Shown: positions 40,103 to 56,313 of the stretch, one piece after another
How the letters are laid out: the number at the start of each line of letters is the position of its first letter
Position numbering within the stretch: position 1 is the first letter of the stretch
Source of the DNA: an uncultured Flammeovirgaceae bacterium
GTDB lineage: Bacteria; Bacteroidota; Bacteroidia; Cytophagales; Cyclobacteriaceae
NCBI GenBank assembly: GCA_937883755.1
Contig: CAKZYA010000060.1
Coordinates: 248,001-312,000 of the forward strand
DNA: 64,000 nt
Direction: 5' to 3'
The notes under the pieces: generated by a model
What the model was told of the DNA's origin: nothing
Seen by the model: only the letters and a program-made list of their open reading frames with translations
Database searches by the model: none
Position numbers and translations under genes: made by a program

Positions 40103-40106
40103 AGGT

Positions 40107-40121
40107 GGCTGCCGCGCAGCC
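40107..40121. repeat. GC-rich palindrome after cusA
   Basis: GGCTGC-CGC-GCAGCC begins 5 bases after the cusA stop codon. It has no U-tract on either side, so it is not a clear terminator. It is much more GC-rich than its surroundings and shares the GGCAGCC/GGCTGCC string with one of the 14-nt insertions in the IS copy at 51811-52426. Confidence 0.55.
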
Positions 40122-40209
40122 GGAAGCTTAATACTAAAAATTGATGACATTGATTATGATAAAAAGTTGTAGAAAATTAAAAGTACATCGCCGAGCCTAT
40201 AGTTTCTCA

Positions 40210-50381: not shown

Positions 50382-51398
50382 ATGATGAAAGCAATAGGAT
50401 TTAAACAATCACTACCCATAACCGGAGAGAATAGCTTTATTGAGTTTGAAGCTGAAAAGCCTACGCCATCCGGCTACGATCTGCTGGTGAAAGTAGCTGC
50501 TAACTCGATCAACCCAGTTGATTATAAAGTGCGGCAAAACGCGGCCAAAGATACGGTGCTGGATACTCCCAAGATTATTGGCTGGGACGCCGTAGGAACC
50601 GTGGACGCCGTAGGCGACAAAACATCACAATTTAAAGTAGGTGATGAAGTGTACTACGCCGGAGATATTACTCGCAGTGGTAGCAATGCTGAATATCAAT
50701 TAGTTGATGAACGTATTGTAGGGATTAAGCCTAAGAGCTTGACGGTAGCCGAAGCTGCGGCGATTCCACTAACCGGGTTAACCGCTTATGAAGCCTTGTT
50801 TGATCGAATCAAAATAAACCCGGAAAATGACCAAGGGAAAACCGTCCTGATTCTAGCGGGTGCTGGTGGGGTAGGTTCTATCGCCATTCAATTGGCTAAA
50901 CAAATCGCTAAGCTAGCGGTGATCGCTACAGCATCTCGACCGGAATCTGAAAAATGGTGTAAAGAAATGGGAGCTGATTATGTGGTAAACCACCATAATC
51001 TACAAGCTGAATTAGAAAAGATAGGTCATAGCCAAGTAGACTATATTTTAGATTTTGCGGGCATCAATTCCTATTGGGAATCCGTTACCGAGGTTATTAA
51101 ACCCCAAGGACATATTGTAACTATTGTCGGGAACAGCGATCCGCTGAATCTGAGTTTGCTCAAGAATAAGAGCGCAACACTTTCCTGGGAATTTATGTAT
51201 ACCCGCTCTATGTATCAAACCGATGATGTCGCTAGGCAGTGCGAAATTTTGAATCATATCGCTGAATTACTGGATGCTGGAATCCTCAGACATACCCTAA
51301 CTACTACATTAAAGGGTCTTACGGCAGAAAACCTAAAAGAAGCCCACCAAATGCAGGAATCGGGAAAAACGATTGGAAAGACGGTTATTGAATTTTAA
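50382..51398 (+). CDS. Zinc-binding-type alcohol dehydrogenase / quinone oxidoreductase family
   Basis: 338 residues, full length for the MDR family. N-terminal GroES-like domain: ANSINPVDYKVRQNAAKDTV and IIGWDAVGTVDAVGDKTSQF. The Rossmann motif is LILAGAGGVGSIAIQLAKQI near residue 155. The structural zinc cysteines are absent, as in the quinone-reductase branch (adh_fam_1 type). It should reduce a carbonyl or quinone with NADPH. Intact, between pseudogenes; a hairpin at 51471 follows. Confidence 0.88.
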   Translation: MMKAIGFKQSLPITGENSFIEFEAEKPTPSGYDLLVKVAANSINPVDYKVRQNAAKDTVLDTPKIIGWDAVGTVDAVGDKTSQFKVGDEVYYAGDITRSGSNAEYQLVDERIVGIKPKSLTVAEAAAIPLTGLTAYEALFDRIKINPENDQGKTVLILAGAGGVGSIAIQLAKQIAKLAVIATASRPESEKWCKEMGADYVVNHHNLQAELEKIGHSQVDYILDFAGINSYWESVTEVIKPQGHIVTIVGNSDPLNLSLLKNKSATLSWEFMYTRSMYQTDDVARQCEILNHIAELLDAGILRHTLTTTLKGLTAENLKEAHQMQESGKTIGKTVIEF

Positions 51399-51470
51399 AG
51401 TAAACTGTTTAGTACGAAGTGTTTACGCGATAAGGAGTCGATGCCTTTATGAGCGGTTGAATTAAGGTGG

Positions 51471-51497
51471 CCAAAGGAATTGGGAAAATTCCTTTGG
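51471..51497. terminator. Hairpin downstream of the quinone oxidoreductase gene
   Basis: CCAAAGGAATT (51471-51481) and AATTCCTTTGG (51487-51497) form a perfect 11-bp stem with loop GGGAA. It lies about 73 bases after the stop. The following TTCTCTG is only weakly U-rich, so termination is likely but not certain. Confidence 0.55.
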
Positions 51498-51683
51498 TTC
51501 TCTGTCAACAAAAAGGTATGTGCTAAATGCAATTTGTGGTAAAGACTATCTATTAATGGGCTTTTATCATTTGATGGTGATCCAATAGCCAGACTAGGTC
51601 AGCATCACTACTTGAGGGTACTTTTTCTTTTCTACTCATTAGTCTAGTATTCAGTTATATTCTAGCAACAAAATCTTCTAAAT

Positions 51684-51806
51684 TTACTTTACGGTTAAAA
51701 GCCCGAGTATTTTTCGTAAACGATAGCGAGTTGTATGCACCGACTCAATAGAAAAGTCTAGAAGTTTAGCCATGTCTTTAGAGGAAAAATTTAGTTTAAT
51801 ATCTAG
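51684..51806 (-). pseudogene. LuxR-type HTH fragment cut by the IS
   Basis: The minus strand reads LDIKLNFSSKDMAKLLDFSI then ESVHTTRYRLRKILGLLTVK and stops. The SSKDMAKLLxxSxESVxxxRYRLRKxLGL pattern is the C-terminal helix-turn-helix of LuxR/NarL-like regulators. An in-frame stop precedes it, and the IS begins about 5 bases further on. The upstream part of the gene is gone. Confidence 0.7.
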
Positions 51807-51810
51807 TTAT

Positions 51811-52426
51811 TGGGATGGGTGAAATCCCACGCCTTCAGTGGACGCCATGCGGGCGGCAACTTTAGTATTTTTCGATTTGTATCTTTGTGAGATGTCAAAC
51901 TATCGGAAAGGTTTACATACTCGCTATGATCTAAAAATACACATTGTGTGGATTACAAAATATAGAAAGCCCGTCTTACACGGTGCAATAGCTAAACGAG
52001 TAAGAGAGTTGATGCGAGAAACCTGTTTGGCTAATGAGATACAAATTGTTAAAGGCCATGTATCAAAGGATCGTGTACATTTGCTAATAAGCTATGGCGC
52101 GGCCACCGTCCGCCACGTTTATCAGTAGCTAAGATAGCGCAATATATCAAGGGGAAAACCGCGTCACGGTGACTTCACGGAAAATGCTTCAAGAATTTAC
52201 GGATTTGAAGAAACAGTTTTGGGGCAGCCGTGGCACGGACAGCACATATGGGCTAGAGGCTATTTTGCAGTGAGTACAGGAAATGTAACCAATAAAGTGA
52301 TAGCAGAATACATTGAGAACCAAGACAAAGAACCACCAAATGAAGATTTCAAAATACATGATGCATCATAGTTTCAGGCGGCTTCACACGCATACAAATC
52401 TACCGTCCTTTCAGCCGCTATGTAGT
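51811..52426 (+). mobile_element. IS200/IS605-family insertion sequence, inactive copy
   Basis: A single tnpA without tnpB, flanked by the subterminal hairpin sequences expected of IS200-type elements (CCCACGCCTTCA ... GGCGGC at the left). It sits between a LuxR fragment and the tail of another gene, so it arose by insertion or joined a deletion. Ends are approximate because the left hairpin carries an inserted 14-mer and the right one is degraded. Confidence 0.8.
51892..52371 (+). pseudogene. tnpA: TnpA transposase (Y1/HUH), broken by three 14-nt insertions
   Basis: Read from ATG 51892: SNYRKGLHTRYDLKIHIVWI, TKYRKPVL, VSKDRVHLLISY. Removing 52096-52109, 52161-52174 and 52225-52238 (14 nt each) restores one 145-codon frame: PPRLSVAKIAQYIKGKTSRK, MLQEFTDLKKQFWG, QHIWARGYFAVSTGNVTNKV, then IAEYIENQ with the likely catalytic Tyr. 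The total is a normal TnpA length. The HUH motif reads R-V-H instead of H-V-H. The enzyme should be inactive. Confidence 0.85.
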
Positions 52427-52660
52427 TTAATTTTTACCGATGGTCCCGAGCGAAATACCATTCAGTGGTCTTCCGACGGGGTTAATTTTGAGATCAAATC
52501 GCATATTAAGTGGGGACCACCTGCTGCTGGGCTAGTTCGTGAATTGGATTTCGAGGCTCATCCAGTAGAAGCTCTTAAATCGGGGCTCACTCACGAATAC
52601 GTCAGCTACGACTGGCAAAAAATCATGCGGTTTGAGTATAAGCAACCCTTTACCCCCTAA
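52427..52660 (+). pseudogene. C-terminal fragment of a secreted sugar-active-type protein
   Basis: The frame right of the IS reads IFTDGPERNTIQWSSDGVNF, then EIKSHIKWGPPAAGLVREL and, near the end, LTHEYVSYDWQKIMRFEYKQ. TDGPERNTIQWSxDGVNFE is a pattern I know from the C-termini of large exported glycoside-hydrolase-like proteins of Bacteroidota and Planctomycetota; the exact family is not certain. Everything upstream has been lost at the IS junction. Confidence 0.5.
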
Positions 52661-52672
52661 TACCAAGCTACT

Positions 52673-52700
52673 GTCGTTTGTGGACTATGGACTGTTGACG
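52673..52700. repeat. GTGGACT-type intergenic repeat
   Basis: GTGGACTATGGACTGTTGAC after the broken gene is built from the same GTGGACT/GGACTGT words as the insert between HYC_CC_PP and cusA (36093-36170). It is a short dispersed intergenic repeat within this window. Confidence 0.6.
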
Positions 52701-52785
52701 AACAACAATCAGCAATTGAGCCATTGAACCGGGCGCAATCAAATTATAGACTAGAGCATTTTAACATAATAATACCAAAAGACAT

Positions 52786-53805
52786 ATGAAAGCAGCATAT
52801 TATAAAGAGAAAGGCAAGTTTGAAGTAGGAGAGACCCAAACTAGATCACCGGGAGTAGATGAAGTCCGGCTAGAGGTAGCTTACTGCGGTGTTTGTGGAA
52901 CTGATGTGCATATTTATCATGGTGTAATGGATCAGCGAATCCAGCCCCCCCAAATCGTTGGGCACGAAGCTTCAGCAACGGTAGCTGAAGTAGGAGAAGG
53001 AGTAGAAGGAATACAAGTCGGCGATAAGGTAGCCGTGCGCCCACTTAAATTTGGCGACCCGCACCCCTTTGATAAAGGTAATCCCCACGTAGGTAAAAAT
53101 TTGAAATTTATTGGCATCGATGCTCCTGGCGCATTTCAGAATAGTTGGGTGGTACCTGCTTATACCTTGCATGCTTTGCCCGACGGCTTATCGCTTCGGC
53201 ATGGAGCATTTATTGAACCATTGTCGGTAGCTTGTCATGATGTAAAGATTGGGCGGGTAAAAGCTGGAGAAAACTGTTTAGTCATTGGTGGTGGCCCTAT
53301 CGGAACCCTCATCGCCTTTGTACTTCGAAAAAAAGGAGCGAACGCTATAGTATCCGAAGTAAACGAAAAGCGGGTAGAGATGCTAAAAGGCTTTGGCTTT
53401 GAAGTAATCAATCCAATTAAAGAAGATATTGCCGAGCGAGTCAACAGTCTCACGAATGAGGCGATGGCTGACTGCGTATTTGAAGTGTCAGGCTCAGCCG
53501 CTGGAGTAAAAACCATGACTGAGGTAGTTAACGTGCGAGGTCGGATTGTAATGGTAGCTATTCACAGCGGAGGGACAAGAGAGGTTGACTTGTTCAAATT
53601 CTTTTGGTCGGAGATTGAAATGTTAGGTGCCCGGCTCTACGATGAAGAGGATTACGAAGAGGCCATCCGCATTGCGGCCTCTGGCAATATTCCCTTTGAT
53701 AAACTAATCACTCAGGAAAGCCCACTGGATGAAATCCAAGGAGTTTTTGAAGCGATAGATAATAATCCGGCAGGTATGAAGTATCTAATTAACTGTCAGT
53801 CCTGA
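52786..53805 (+). CDS. Zinc-dependent medium-chain sugar/polyol dehydrogenase
   Basis: 339 residues. Catalytic zinc ligands are visible in YCGVCGTDVHIYHG (Cys38 region), GHEASATVAEVG (His, Glu) and GAFIEPLSVACHD (Glu). The NAD-binding motif is CLVIGGGPIGTLIAFVLR near residue 165. The structural-zinc loop has no cysteines. It falls with L-threonine/sorbitol/galactitol-type dehydrogenases. Followed 46 bases later by a KduD-like SDR, so it probably oxidises a sugar acid or polyol in a shared pathway; the rest of that pathway downstream is broken. Confidence 0.88.
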   Translation: MKAAYYKEKGKFEVGETQTRSPGVDEVRLEVAYCGVCGTDVHIYHGVMDQRIQPPQIVGHEASATVAEVGEGVEGIQVGDKVAVRPLKFGDPHPFDKGNPHVGKNLKFIGIDAPGAFQNSWVVPAYTLHALPDGLSLRHGAFIEPLSVACHDVKIGRVKAGENCLVIGGGPIGTLIAFVLRKKGANAIVSEVNEKRVEMLKGFGFEVINPIKEDIAERVNSLTNEAMADCVFEVSGSAAGVKTMTEVVNVRGRIVMVAIHSGGTREVDLFKFFWSEIEMLGARLYDEEDYEEAIRIAASGNIPFDKLITQESPLDEIQGVFEAIDNNPAGMKYLINCQS

Positions 53806-53851: not shown

Positions 53852-54619
53852 ATGATATTGAATCAATTTAAATTAGACGGAAAGACAGCGTTAGTAACCG
53901 GATGCAAACGGGGTATTGGCAAAGCGATGGCAGTGGCTTTAGCTGAAGCTGGAGCGAATATTATCGGAGTATCTGCTTCGCTGGAATTGTCAGGAAGTGA
54001 TGTTGAGAAAAAGGTTACCGAACGCGGTGGTTCGTTTCAAGCCTATCAATGCGATTTTTCTGATCGGAAAGCGCTGTATCAATTTATCGAGCAGGTGAAA
54101 TCGGATTATGACCAAATTGATATTCTGGTAAACAATGCCGGAACCATACTGCGAAAACCAGCCGCTGAACATCCGGATGAGATGTGGGATAAAGTAATTG
54201 AGGTGAATCAGAATGCCCAGTTTATCCTAACCCGCGAGTTCGGGAAAGGTATGGTTGAGCGAGGTAGTGGAAAGATTGTTTTTACCGCCTCGTTACTTAC
54301 TTTCCAAGGTGGAATTACAGTGCCAGGCTATGCAGCTAGTAAAGGAGCTATCGGACAAATGACGATGGCTTTCGCTAATGAGTGGGCGGGAAAAGGCGTA
54401 AACGTAAACGCTATTGCGCCTGGTTACATTAGCACTGATAATACTGAAGCTCTTCGCAATGATCCCCAACGCGCTGAGTCTATTCTTTCTCGTATTCCTG
54501 CCGGACGCTGGGGCGAACCGGAAGATTTCGCTGGGCCAATTGTATTCCTATGCTCAGAAGCAGCCGCTTATATGCATGGAACCACTATGCTGGTTGACGG
54601 TGGTTGGATGGGACGGTAA
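53852..54619 (+). CDS. KduD-like short-chain dehydrogenase
   Basis: 255 residues, complete SDR. The NAD site is ALVTGCKRGIGKAMAVALAE, followed by ILVNNAGTILRKPAAEHPDE, the catalytic Ser in TASLLTFQGG, and YAASKGAIGQM with Tyr and Lys. GGITVPGYAASK and YISTDNTEALRNDPQR are typical of 2-deoxy-D-gluconate 3-dehydrogenase / KduD enzymes of hexuronate breakdown. The related substrate here could be another keto-sugar acid. A 27-bp hairpin starts right after the stop. Confidence 0.88.
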   Translation: MILNQFKLDGKTALVTGCKRGIGKAMAVALAEAGANIIGVSASLELSGSDVEKKVTERGGSFQAYQCDFSDRKALYQFIEQVKSDYDQIDILVNNAGTILRKPAAEHPDEMWDKVIEVNQNAQFILTREFGKGMVERGSGKIVFTASLLTFQGGITVPGYAASKGAIGQMTMAFANEWAGKGVNVNAIAPGYISTDNTEALRNDPQRAESILSRIPAGRWGEPEDFAGPIVFLCSEAAAYMHGTTMLVDGGWMGR

Positions 54620-54684
54620 TAATGAGTAATGAATAATGATGAATGAGTGATTACAGATCATTCGTCATTATTCATTACTCATTA
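54620..54684. repeat. Long perfect AT-rich hairpin
   Basis: TAATGAGTAATGAATAATGA (54620-54639) is exactly inverted at 54665-54684, and pairing goes on inward for seven more bases with one G-T pair (about 27 bp in all, loop ~11). It begins right after the KduD-like stop codon and ends just before the aldehyde dehydrogenase remnant. Confidence 0.9.
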
Positions 54685-54689
54685 AAACT

Positions 54690-55072
54690 ATGCTTGAAAT
54701 CAAGCAATACCAACTTTTTATTAACGGTGAGTGGGTTGATTCCTCTACTTGTGAGCATGAGGAAATTACTAGTCCTGCTGAAGAATCGGTAGTAGGAACA
54801 GTGCAAATGGGAGTGGAGGCCGATGCCCAATGGCCTTAGAAGCCGCTGAGCAAGCTCAAAAAGCCTGGAATAAAGTTCCAGCTAAGAAGCGAGCAGATGT
54901 ACCTGCACGAAGATATTTACGAACCCTTCATGGAAAAATTCATGAAGAAAGTAGAAGCACTGAAGATTGTTAACCCTCTAGATTAGGCTGTGGAACTGGG
55001 GGAGAAGATGGAAAGTATGGTTTTGAACAGTACCTGGATAAGAAAACATTTTATGTAAAATATAAAGCCTAG
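54690..55072 (+). pseudogene. Aldehyde dehydrogenase pseudogene with large internal deletions
   Basis: Readable parts in order: LEIKQYQLFINGEWVDSSTC and GTVQMGVEADAQ (N-terminus), a one-base deletion near 54829, LEAAEQAQKAWNKVPAKKRA, then a jump to MYLHEDIYEPFMEKFMKKVE (normally ~200 residues later), a stop, and the C-terminal end GEDGKYGFEQYLDKKTFYVK. The catalytic Cys and Glu region is deleted. The original was an NAD(P)-dependent sugar-aldehyde or semialdehyde dehydrogenase by context. Confidence 0.85.
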
Positions 55073-55074
55073 CT

Positions 55075-56074
55075 ATGGGAAGTACGATTGCTAAAGTCCA
55101 ACCCCGAATGTTTCGGATACCTTTACCGGAAGTGCTTAATGATGCCAAACACGGCAACCACACCCACTTTGAATTAGTTACTGTAACTATAACTCTAGAA
55201 GATGGTAGTGAAGGTACGGGTTATACCTAAACTGGTGGGAAGGGAGGTCATGCCATTAAATCAGTAGCTGAGCACGATATTGCTCCGGCTTTTATTGGGC
55301 TAGATGGGGATAATAAAGAAAAGGTTTTTGATTTTATGGAGTGGCATATTCACTAGGTAGGTCGGGGTGGAATTACTTCTTTCGCCATTTCTGCTATTGA
55401 TATTGCCTTGTGGAAAATTCGCTGCAAAAAGGCGAAAAGACCCCTGTGGCAAGTAACCGGGGCTGCTAATAATACCTGTAATGCTTACTGTGGTGGTATT
55501 GATCTACAATTTTCACTGGAGAAGCTACTCAAAAATATGCAAGGCTACCTAGATTCAGGTTTTAATGCGGTGAAAATCAAGGTTGGTTGCCCTTGCCTGG
55601 AAGAAGATTTGGAACGAATAGAAGCAGTACGAGAGCTAATTGGGGATAATCGCCTATGGTAGATGCTAACTATTCTATGACTGTAGAACAGGCCATAAAA
55701 GCGGCTCAAGCTTTTGAGCCTTATAACTTGCAATGGTTTGAAGAACCTACGATTCCTGATGACTACCTCGGATTTGCCCAGATTGCGATGCCACCGGAAT
55801 ACTGCTAGCCATGGGGGAGAACCTACACACGCTCTACGAATTTGGCTACGCCTTTGAACAAGCCAGGCTTTCATTTATTCAGTCTGATACTTCTAATTGC
55901 GGTGGCATTTATGGTTGGCTTCAGGTAGCCGAGATGTCACAAAAGTATGGTATTCCAGTCTGTTCTCACGGCATGTAGGAACTACACTTAAGTTTGGTAT
56001 CAGCCCAACCTAATGCTGGATGGCTGGAAGTATACAGTTCTGGGCGCGAGTATGACAATGTAGGATATTCGTGA
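55075..56074 (+). pseudogene. Enolase-superfamily (mandelate racemase-like) pseudogene
   Basis: Nearly full length but broken. PLPEVLNDAKHGNHTHFELV starts it; a TAA replaces a residue in YT-x-TGGKGGHAI, and a TAG stands before VGRGGI. The barrel acid/base part VKIKVGC is present. Single-base deletions occur at about 55657 (before VDANYSMTVEQAIKAAQAFE) and 55787 (before [20 protein letters not shown]), and a TAG replaces Gln in SHGM-x-ELHLSLV. Such enzymes dehydrate or isomerise sugar acids, fitting the neighbouring dehydrogenases. Confidence 0.85.
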
Positions 56075-56181
56075 TGAACGAGTTAAGGAGCTGGCTTTAG
56101 AGTGAATTCGCTACTACTACTAACTTCGTTGGGACTTAGTGAAAGAAAGAATCATAGACACTCCCGGTATCAAATCTGAGA

Positions 56182-56280
56182 GCGGTGGGACTGGACCTTA
56201 CCAGCCTTGGTCGGGAGTATTTAGATATTCCCCAGAATGAGTTGAACAACAATCCTAACTTACAGCATAACCCAGGTACA
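56182..56280 (+). pseudogene. C-terminal tail of a SusD/RagB-like protein
   Basis: AVGLDLTSLGREYLDIPQNE then LNNNPNLQHNPG is the typical end of SusD-family lipoproteins (REYLxPIPQxELxxNPNLxQNPGY). Nothing of the rest of susD or of susC is visible. It marks the former presence of a polysaccharide utilisation locus. The 56338-56596 stretch that follows holds only AT-rich sequence. Confidence 0.6.
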
Positions 56281-56313
56281 ACTAGCGTTGATAGCAAGAT
56301 GCAATTTAGTAGT

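Follow-up and report, generated by a model that had tools for sequence, protein, structure and literature searches.

Four genomes of a Flammeovirgaceae-like genus contain a real, genus-wide class of hairpin inserts of 14-15 nt, present in every genome of the genus returned by our search (G000-G003). Their common feature is a grammar, consisting of a tail of 3 nt, an arm of 4 nt, a loop of 3-4 nt and a complementary arm of 4 nt, with compensatory changes in the arms. The class behaves like a very small dispersed repeat, yet it misses the length and the sequence conservation of those that have been described. On balance, these inserts are probably, if by no means certainly, copies of ultra-short dispersed hairpin elements, with a unit of 14 nt that becomes 15 nt with a longer loop or tail.

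The window, the whole 64,000-nt stretch analysed here (G000:C60:248001-312000), belongs to a 7.6-Mb genome in 75 contigs, and the insertion sequence (IS) on which the analysis centres is listed with its inserts in Table 1. Its assignment to IS200/IS605 relies on the Y1_Tnp domain (PF01797), for which a profile search of the genome returned a match at G000:C60:299922-300323 with two TAG codons within it; the sister copy matches the domain with an E-value of 7.1e-41. This uninterrupted sister copy (L001, contig C23 of the same genome) is about 74% identical to the window IS, and alignment of the two revealed three extra blocks, each of exactly 14 nt, in the window tnpA frame. A first-pass annotation of the window had proposed four 14-nt insertions in the window IS, and the alignments bear it out, the fourth being a left-end gain with respect to the copy L142 of G002, a genome of the same genus. 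Removal of the three inserts restores an open TnpA, as the annotation had also anticipated, with no stops in 149 codons. Two of the positions it had given within the gene (52096-52109 and 52225-52238) were recovered unchanged, and the third (52161-52174) is an alternative frame-restoring parse of 52160-52173. The annotation had called for intact copies and had regarded homologs containing the same bases as normal sequence as evidence against insertion. Uninterrupted copies lacking the bases were found, although L001 has a 15-nt GC-rich insert of its own elsewhere. The annotation had described the insertions in a single IS copy; they are genuine, but this copy is one case among many. With three insertions in the gene and one at the left end, this TnpA copy would be inactive unless the hairpins are bypassed.

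Table 1. Positions in the window of the IS copy, its hairpin inserts and a further putative hairpin.
Feature	Position	Strand	Remarks
IS200/IS605-like (Y1 transposase) IS copy	51796..52442	+	approximate extent, by homology with L001
tnpA coding region with three 14-nt hairpins inside	51892..52371	+	alignment to L001
Left-end insert GTGGACGCCATGCG	51838..51851	+	14 nt; not in L142; similar stretch in L143
Insert 1 GGCGCGGCCACCGT	52096..52109	+	missing in L001; slidable by 1 nt
Insert 2 CGC-GTCA-CGG-TGAC, family A	52160..52173	+	missing in L001; slidable by 2 nt
Insert 3 CAG-CCGT-GGC-ACGG, family C	52225..52238	+	missing in L001; slidable by 2 nt
Intergenic 14-mer TGG-CTGC-CGC-GCAG, putative	40106..40119	+	fits hairpin grammar in window scan

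The individual inserts have counterparts elsewhere. After a 1-nt slide, the complement of insert 1 reads CGG-TGGC-CGC-GCCA (tail, arm, loop, arm); its 14-mer is identical in another tnpA gene (L004) and at L037, and differs by one base at the same site of L143, a G002 copy whose left-end stretch differs from that of the window IS at two positions. The left-end insert is an imperfect hairpin, with three of four arm pairs after a 1-nt slide. Inserts 2 and 3 occur with one and three changes, respectively, at the same sites of the G002 copy L141, and CCG-CCGT-GGC-ACGG, comparable to insert 3, recurs in the IS110-like L241 and in the IS3-like L277 of G003. A scan of the window for the grammar returned 11 places, including the three inserts in the reading frame and two overlapping intergenic places near 40106-40122. 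A known RNA family was dropped as a candidate, with no Rfam matches at gathering score in 51000-53000. By reading, the stretch at 54690-56300 contains pseudogenes resembling aldehyde dehydrogenase and mandelate racemase genes, degraded through stops and small indels, and the window scan identified no hairpins of the grammar in it.

The notion that a single insertion length is not random, put forward from the window alone, is sustained by a gap spectrum with a peak at 14 nt. BLAST hits were chained among 1.57 Mb of fetched, partly overlapping sequence, and 207 alignments of 489 clusters (at least 70% identity and at least 80 columns) were kept after removal of poorly flanked gaps, of hits that were single and near-identical, and of clusters above 6000 nt. 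These alignments yielded 50 gap strings of 14 nt, against 3, 8, 14, 4 and 1 of 12, 13, 15, 16 and 17 nt, unmerged for strand or sliding, so that some events are counted twice; a few of the 14-nt strings were not GC-rich. Given that paired copies come mostly from repeated DNA, the method is biased towards mobile elements. A self-BLAST with costly long gaps recovered almost no long gaps.

The first-pass annotation had singled out a GYCA core as the common feature, but tail, loop and paired arms give a better description of the curated inserts. Four Watson-Crick arm pairs were found in 27 of 43 curated inserts, a set that includes the same site in related copies and is hence not independent, against 8.2 expected after base shuffling; three pairs were found in 14 and two in 2, leaving 16 of the 43 without four Watson-Crick pairs. 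Their tails include CGC, CCG, CCA, CAG, GGG and others. One recurrent insert, L221_3 (AGCCGCCGTGGCCC), does not fit the grammar. Tail and loop are common to the members of a family, and the arms vary. Family B (CCR-arm-GGA-arm) comprises seven copies spread over three genomes, in IS3, in TnpA and at an intergenic place. All of its 28 pair cells are standard, two-sided changes number eight where shuffles give 2.8, and it scores 0.786 for covariation against 0.283 (0/500 shuffles). Family A (CGC-arm-CGN-arm), with seven copies that include window insert 2, is 96.4% paired and scores 0.750 against 0.388 (2/500 shuffles). Since the members of both families were chosen by eye with tail, loop and pairing in view, these scores are overstated relative to a blind set; empty-site evidence of insertion covers some, not every, member.

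A scan free of such choice, taking every 14-mer with GC-rich tail and loop and perfect arms in 1.264 Mb of G000, returned 154 instances outside open reading frames (ORFs) of at least 150 codons, where 93.0 were expected, and no excess inside them (618 against 622.7). Outside long ORFs, families A, B and D were found 5, 5 and 6 times, with 0.75, 0.78 and 0.42 expected, and family C, with 1 against 0.59, was not enriched; 3-4-3-4 hairpins of any composition were in slight excess (2446 against 2116.3). A broad family-A pattern exceeded its control only in G000 (55 against 26), and not in G001, G002 or G003. A census of recurrent 11-mers yielded several weak candidates and no single master sequence, and a census of GC islands alone gave just a slight excess over a Markov model.

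The first-pass annotation had proposed a search for other GC-rich 14-nt insertions. Further inserts of the same kind were found in other transposase genes, and alignments to empty sites identified them in Y1, IS3 and IS110 transposase genes and in group II introns. The Y1 search of G000 returned seven matches at five loci, the window among them. L001 has its 15-nt insert in frame at a position different from those of the window IS, with the ORF remaining open, and its 97% identical counterpart in G002 (L010) presents the same insert. The three remaining loci contain frame-breaking GC-rich stretches of 14 nt, one of them, on contig C58, being the identical GGCGCGGCCACCGT 14-mer, so that all five Y1 loci appear to have 14- or 15-nt inserts (two by alignment, three read from the frames of their translations and not by empty-copy alignment). 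Among IS3-like copies, L221 (C27) has seven inserts, L218 (C16) two of these and L214 (C23) none, and group II intron copies likewise differ in their inserts in paired-copy alignments. An IS3 relic of G003 (L277) has several. An IS66 case (two identical copies in G003), an IS1-like case (L183) and an IS6-like case (L174) were identified by reading, not by empty-copy alignment. Pfam searches with eight proteins, mostly clean copies and open fragments, matched Y1_Tnp, rve (IS3), IS110, IS66, IS1 and, together with HNH, the reverse transcriptase of group II introns. Of the fragments, that of L174 returned no Pfam matches and that of L277 fell under the cut-off.

The sharing of inserts among copies does not track overall similarity. 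L218 and L221 have two inserts in common without a base change in copies 83.4% identical (about 17% diverged), and L218 is slightly closer to a clean G002 copy, L223 (84.5%), than to L221; L277 and L281 have one 14-mer exactly in common at 72% identity. The same sites are reused in diverged copies, and in homologous IS of different species the same site carries an insert. This lack of agreement points to recurrent site use, conversion or precise loss. Outside the genus, no such insert was observed in three aligned rve loci, a thin control in which all loci come from a single genome (G012).

Identical 14-mers were found at unrelated places, which favours a very short repeated, templated unit and lends support to the first-pass reading, which had named as options a repeated element of very small size, a process that leaves scars, and insertion from a template. 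Three exact copies of GGCGCGGCCACCGT and two with one mismatch are present in G000, and GCGGCCGCCGCGCG occurs at 19 places in this genome with up to one mismatch; reversed controls for both returned none at up to one mismatch. By reading, the only GCGGCCGCCGCGCG place well inside a long ORF is L072 (residue 393 of 408); the others lie in repeats between genes, in repeated non-coding DNA, at the first residues of stop-to-stop frames, or in genes for transposases or intron reverse transcriptases. The unit CCGTCATGGAATGA has 16 exact copies in the genus (5 in G000, 2 in G001, 4 in G002 and 5 in G003) and no exact copy in the 55 other genomes searched. With up to one mismatch, these 55 genomes presented 44 instances against 73 of the reversed control (our sums), compared to 7 against 2 in G000, 9 against 3 in G003, 2 against 3 in G001 and 5 against 5 in G002, where, as in G001, only exactness exceeds the control. 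By reading, nine of the 16 copies occupy one position of an intergenic repeat (ttcagg-unit-tgttcagg and variants), two lie in the identical IS66 copies, two in IS3 and one elsewhere. The two G001 copies have near-identical contexts just downstream of a tRNA-Met gene, called by ARAGORN in one of the two. The one empty site in alignment, from L221 and L247, agrees with the ends of the unit, and so, by reading, does the intergenic repeat.

Several side observations concern the surroundings of these units. The intergenic repeat hosting the nine exact CCGTCATGGAATGA copies is dispersed and made of ggtgttcagg units (L051:8310, L314, L316, L319-L324). AT-rich palindromic intergenic repeats of about 70 nt, aatgattaatga...tcattaatcatt, occur at window 54616-54692, L046:7492-7557, L159:14616-14691 and many other places, with matches in G001-G003 as well as G000. 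Some copies contain a family-A hairpin; used as a trap, this palindrome family proved to be without hairpin in most copies. At L251, two inverted copies of about 250 bp (L251:2482-2741 and L251:10699-10955), about 8 kb apart and with the same hairpins in both, may mark the two termini of some large mobile element. A 2.1-kb stretch is 99.95% identical between G000 and G002 (L243:4889-7001 against L244:2070-4182), whereas most of the longer matches to the window in G002 have 65-86% identity, which suggests recent transfer or contamination. Finally, L040:1400-1510 is a GC-rich in-frame block within a long ORF, with a one-mismatch copy of window insert 1, and possibly consists of several stacked hairpins.

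The insertion sites themselves bear on how such units might move. Eleven of 43 inserts can be slid by at least 3 nt, where 1.7 were expected. Over 54 events, not all of them independent because a site may recur among related copies, the last four positions of the target matched the terminal arm at frequencies of 0.65, 0.43, 0.31 and 0.41 against null values of 0.48, 0.24, 0.23 and 0.27 (z of 2.5, 3.5, 1.4 and 2.4), falling to background beyond these four positions, the length of the arm. An exact X-GGG-X'-CCC-X form was observed at two sites (GTGC and TGGC) and a near form at a third (AAGC). Strict target duplication of 4 nt was rejected, being exact in few cases and otherwise a statistical resemblance. 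The similarity between arm and target suggests that insertion may be guided by pairing. In IS200/IS605 elements, guides choose their targets by pairing.

In the dispersed-element reading, a typical copy consists of a 3-nt tail, a 4-nt arm, a loop of 3 or 4 nt and the complementary arm, with each family fixed by tail and loop while the arms drift and pairing persists. Copies insert as units, without a long target duplication, into targets whose last 4 nt tend towards likeness with the terminal arm. Such units would presumably have defined ends and be mobilised in trans, most likely as a single-stranded hairpin that base-pairs with the target through its terminal arm, a step suggested by the limit of the target match to four positions. 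Insertions in host genes would be purged, whereas those in genes for transposases and intron reverse transcriptases, and in repeats between genes, would persist. With all five Y1 loci of G000 apparently containing inserts, and no PF01797 match in G003 although inserts occur there, a resident TnpA of the IS200 type does not stand out as the mobilising enzyme. The analysis brought up neither an enzyme nor an intermediate nor a donor locus, and in the 1.57 Mb examined no donor or array locus was recognised.

A different and considerably less probable explanation is that a host system spots mobile DNA at conserved sites and writes hairpins into it, with the families as templates, which would be in spirit a bacterial counterpart to repeat-induced mutation. 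In IS3 OrfB, inserts fall on conserved residues above random (P 0.008; 7 sites, 13 sequences), three of them at CWS/MDF, DNGS/E and PYI/ESF (the slash marking the insertion), which we take to adjoin the catalytic DDE residues, but conservation at the TnpA sites is not significant (P 0.26; 6 sites, 38 sequences). With just two families tested, insertion at conserved residues is suggestive only. The three richest mobile copies have one insert per 121-189 bp, far above the non-ORF excess of about 61 instances of the grammar in 226 kb, so that tolerance alone is no explanation, even if the richest copies are the ones counted. Together with the conserved IS3 sites, this density in some mobile genes gives directed inactivation some probability. 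Insertion at one and the same site of homologous IS from different species and the lack of grammar matches in the ordinary pseudogene stretch at 54690-56300 also speak for it; against it, units also occur next to a tRNA gene and within repeats between genes, paired-copy detection favours repeated, hence mobile, DNA, and no effector gene was identified. Its more specific form, in which a pairing-guided DNA-writing system puts template-derived 14-nt hairpins into conserved, often catalytic, sites of transposases and introns as genome defence by insertion, is if anything a shade less probable.

It is improbable, too, that the inserts are silent, with ribosomes skipping the hairpins or RNA losing them, and hence tolerated in working transposase genes. 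This proposal draws on low dN/dS ratios with insert columns removed, of 0.044-0.058 for the IS3 OrfB of L221 and L218 against L214 and 0.058 for the window TnpA against L001 (dS above 1 in these IS3 and TnpA pairs, and near saturation at 2.18 in the latter), and of 0.086 for the group II reverse transcriptase of L243 against L241. Decay in the laden IS3 genes is limited to one stop and a 2-nt deletion in L221 and a 1-nt deletion in L218, and the group II reverse transcriptase of L243 likewise has no more than one stop. Such ratios imply that insertions are either recent or silent, and recent insertion explains them equally well. The IS110-like L241 and L243 favour recent insertion: they are 99.3% identical over 425 ungapped columns, with dS 0.03 and dN 0 over 135 codons, and L241 exceeds L243 by four hairpins (15, 15, 14 and 14 nt), so that in at least one case inserts would have been gained or lost very recently. 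Moreover, L245 (G001) has three stops, so some insert-laden copies have visibly decayed, and bypass at codon boundaries was not supported, insertion phases 0, 1 and 2 being possible in 14, 13 and 21 of 26 inserts (16.0 expected each). A precedent for silent inserts exists in the byp elements of Magnusiomyces mitochondria, 27-55 nt in length. They likewise are nucleotide blocks interrupting many coding genes, an excerpt of the source describing bypassed inserts at 81 positions in 12 of 15 mitochondrial genes (PMC5009743). In the genomes studied here, hairpins are not in excess in long ORFs and bypass is not supported.

Less probable again is that GC-rich snap-back sequence was added at breaks with microhomology, through repair or template switching and without a heritable element. 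The enriched microhomology and the two X-GGG-X'-CCC-X sites are in line with such a process, but it does not fit exact 14-mers common to unrelated targets and four species, or the conservation of tails and loops within families. We consider it very unlikely that the hairpins are ancestral to these genes and were precisely lost from the clean copies. Sites common to diverged copies, an insert divergence close to that of the flanks for L221/L245 and window/L141 (our count) and the L241/L243 difference, readable as gain or loss, would agree with this, yet the inserts break frames, intact genes lack them, and two inserts of L218/L221 and one of L277/L281 are unchanged despite the divergence of their hosts. 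Assembly or sequencing error is untenable, as inserts occur in all four genomes of the genus, separate assemblies that include a 7.17-Mb contig of G003, and L010 repeats the insert of L001.

Compared to known systems, the dispersed hairpin elements proposed here resemble the SDR5-type very small mobile repeated elements of cyanobacteria, which Elhai et al. reportedly described in 2008 as 21-27 nt long. The likeness lies in a short unit at many unrelated sites and in its precise presence or absence with respect to homologous empty sites. Passages citing SDR5-type elements describe short dispersed repeats at precise sites (PMC4390886, PMC3116915), and an excerpt puts SDR-type repeats at some 20 bp (PMC2884548). 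In contrast, the inserts are 14-15 nt, below the roughly 20 nt or more and the conserved sequence of that kind, their arms vary between copies and covary under a fixed tail-loop grammar, and many lie in transposase genes. REP/REPIN elements with RAYT (HUH) transposases are also short hairpin units; they have a short 5' tag and are mobilised in trans by a Y1 enzyme. In the part of the source available, REPs are 20-40 bp with GTAG or CGTC tags (PMC3733652). The inserts differ in their 14 nt, their variable tails and the absence of a GTAG or CGTC tag, and no RAYT link emerged. The Y1 loci of G000 are themselves hosts of inserts (that of L001 in frame in an open ORF), and G003 returned no PF01797 match. 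Dispersed hairpin-forming inserts are further known as the GC clusters of yeast mitochondria, which, like the hairpin elements of sponge mitochondria, are longer than 14 nt. The latter, as far as the excerpt goes, are repetitive dispersed hairpin inserts that are organellar and intergenic (PMC2800124). Titles and abstract openings among the literature matches listed describe no 14-nt elements of this kind.

If mobile, these units would fall below the size of the smallest bacterial repeats that we are aware of (about 20 nt and up), would be kept by structure more than by sequence and would rank among the smallest dispersed mobile-looking elements in bacteria. The finding raises the tractable question of which enzyme can move or write a 14-nt hairpin. 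Were the genome-defence reading true, many unrelated mobile elements would be disabled at once. The inserts would represent a new mutational force on transposases, one that would account for the frameshift clusters in the mobile genes of this genus.
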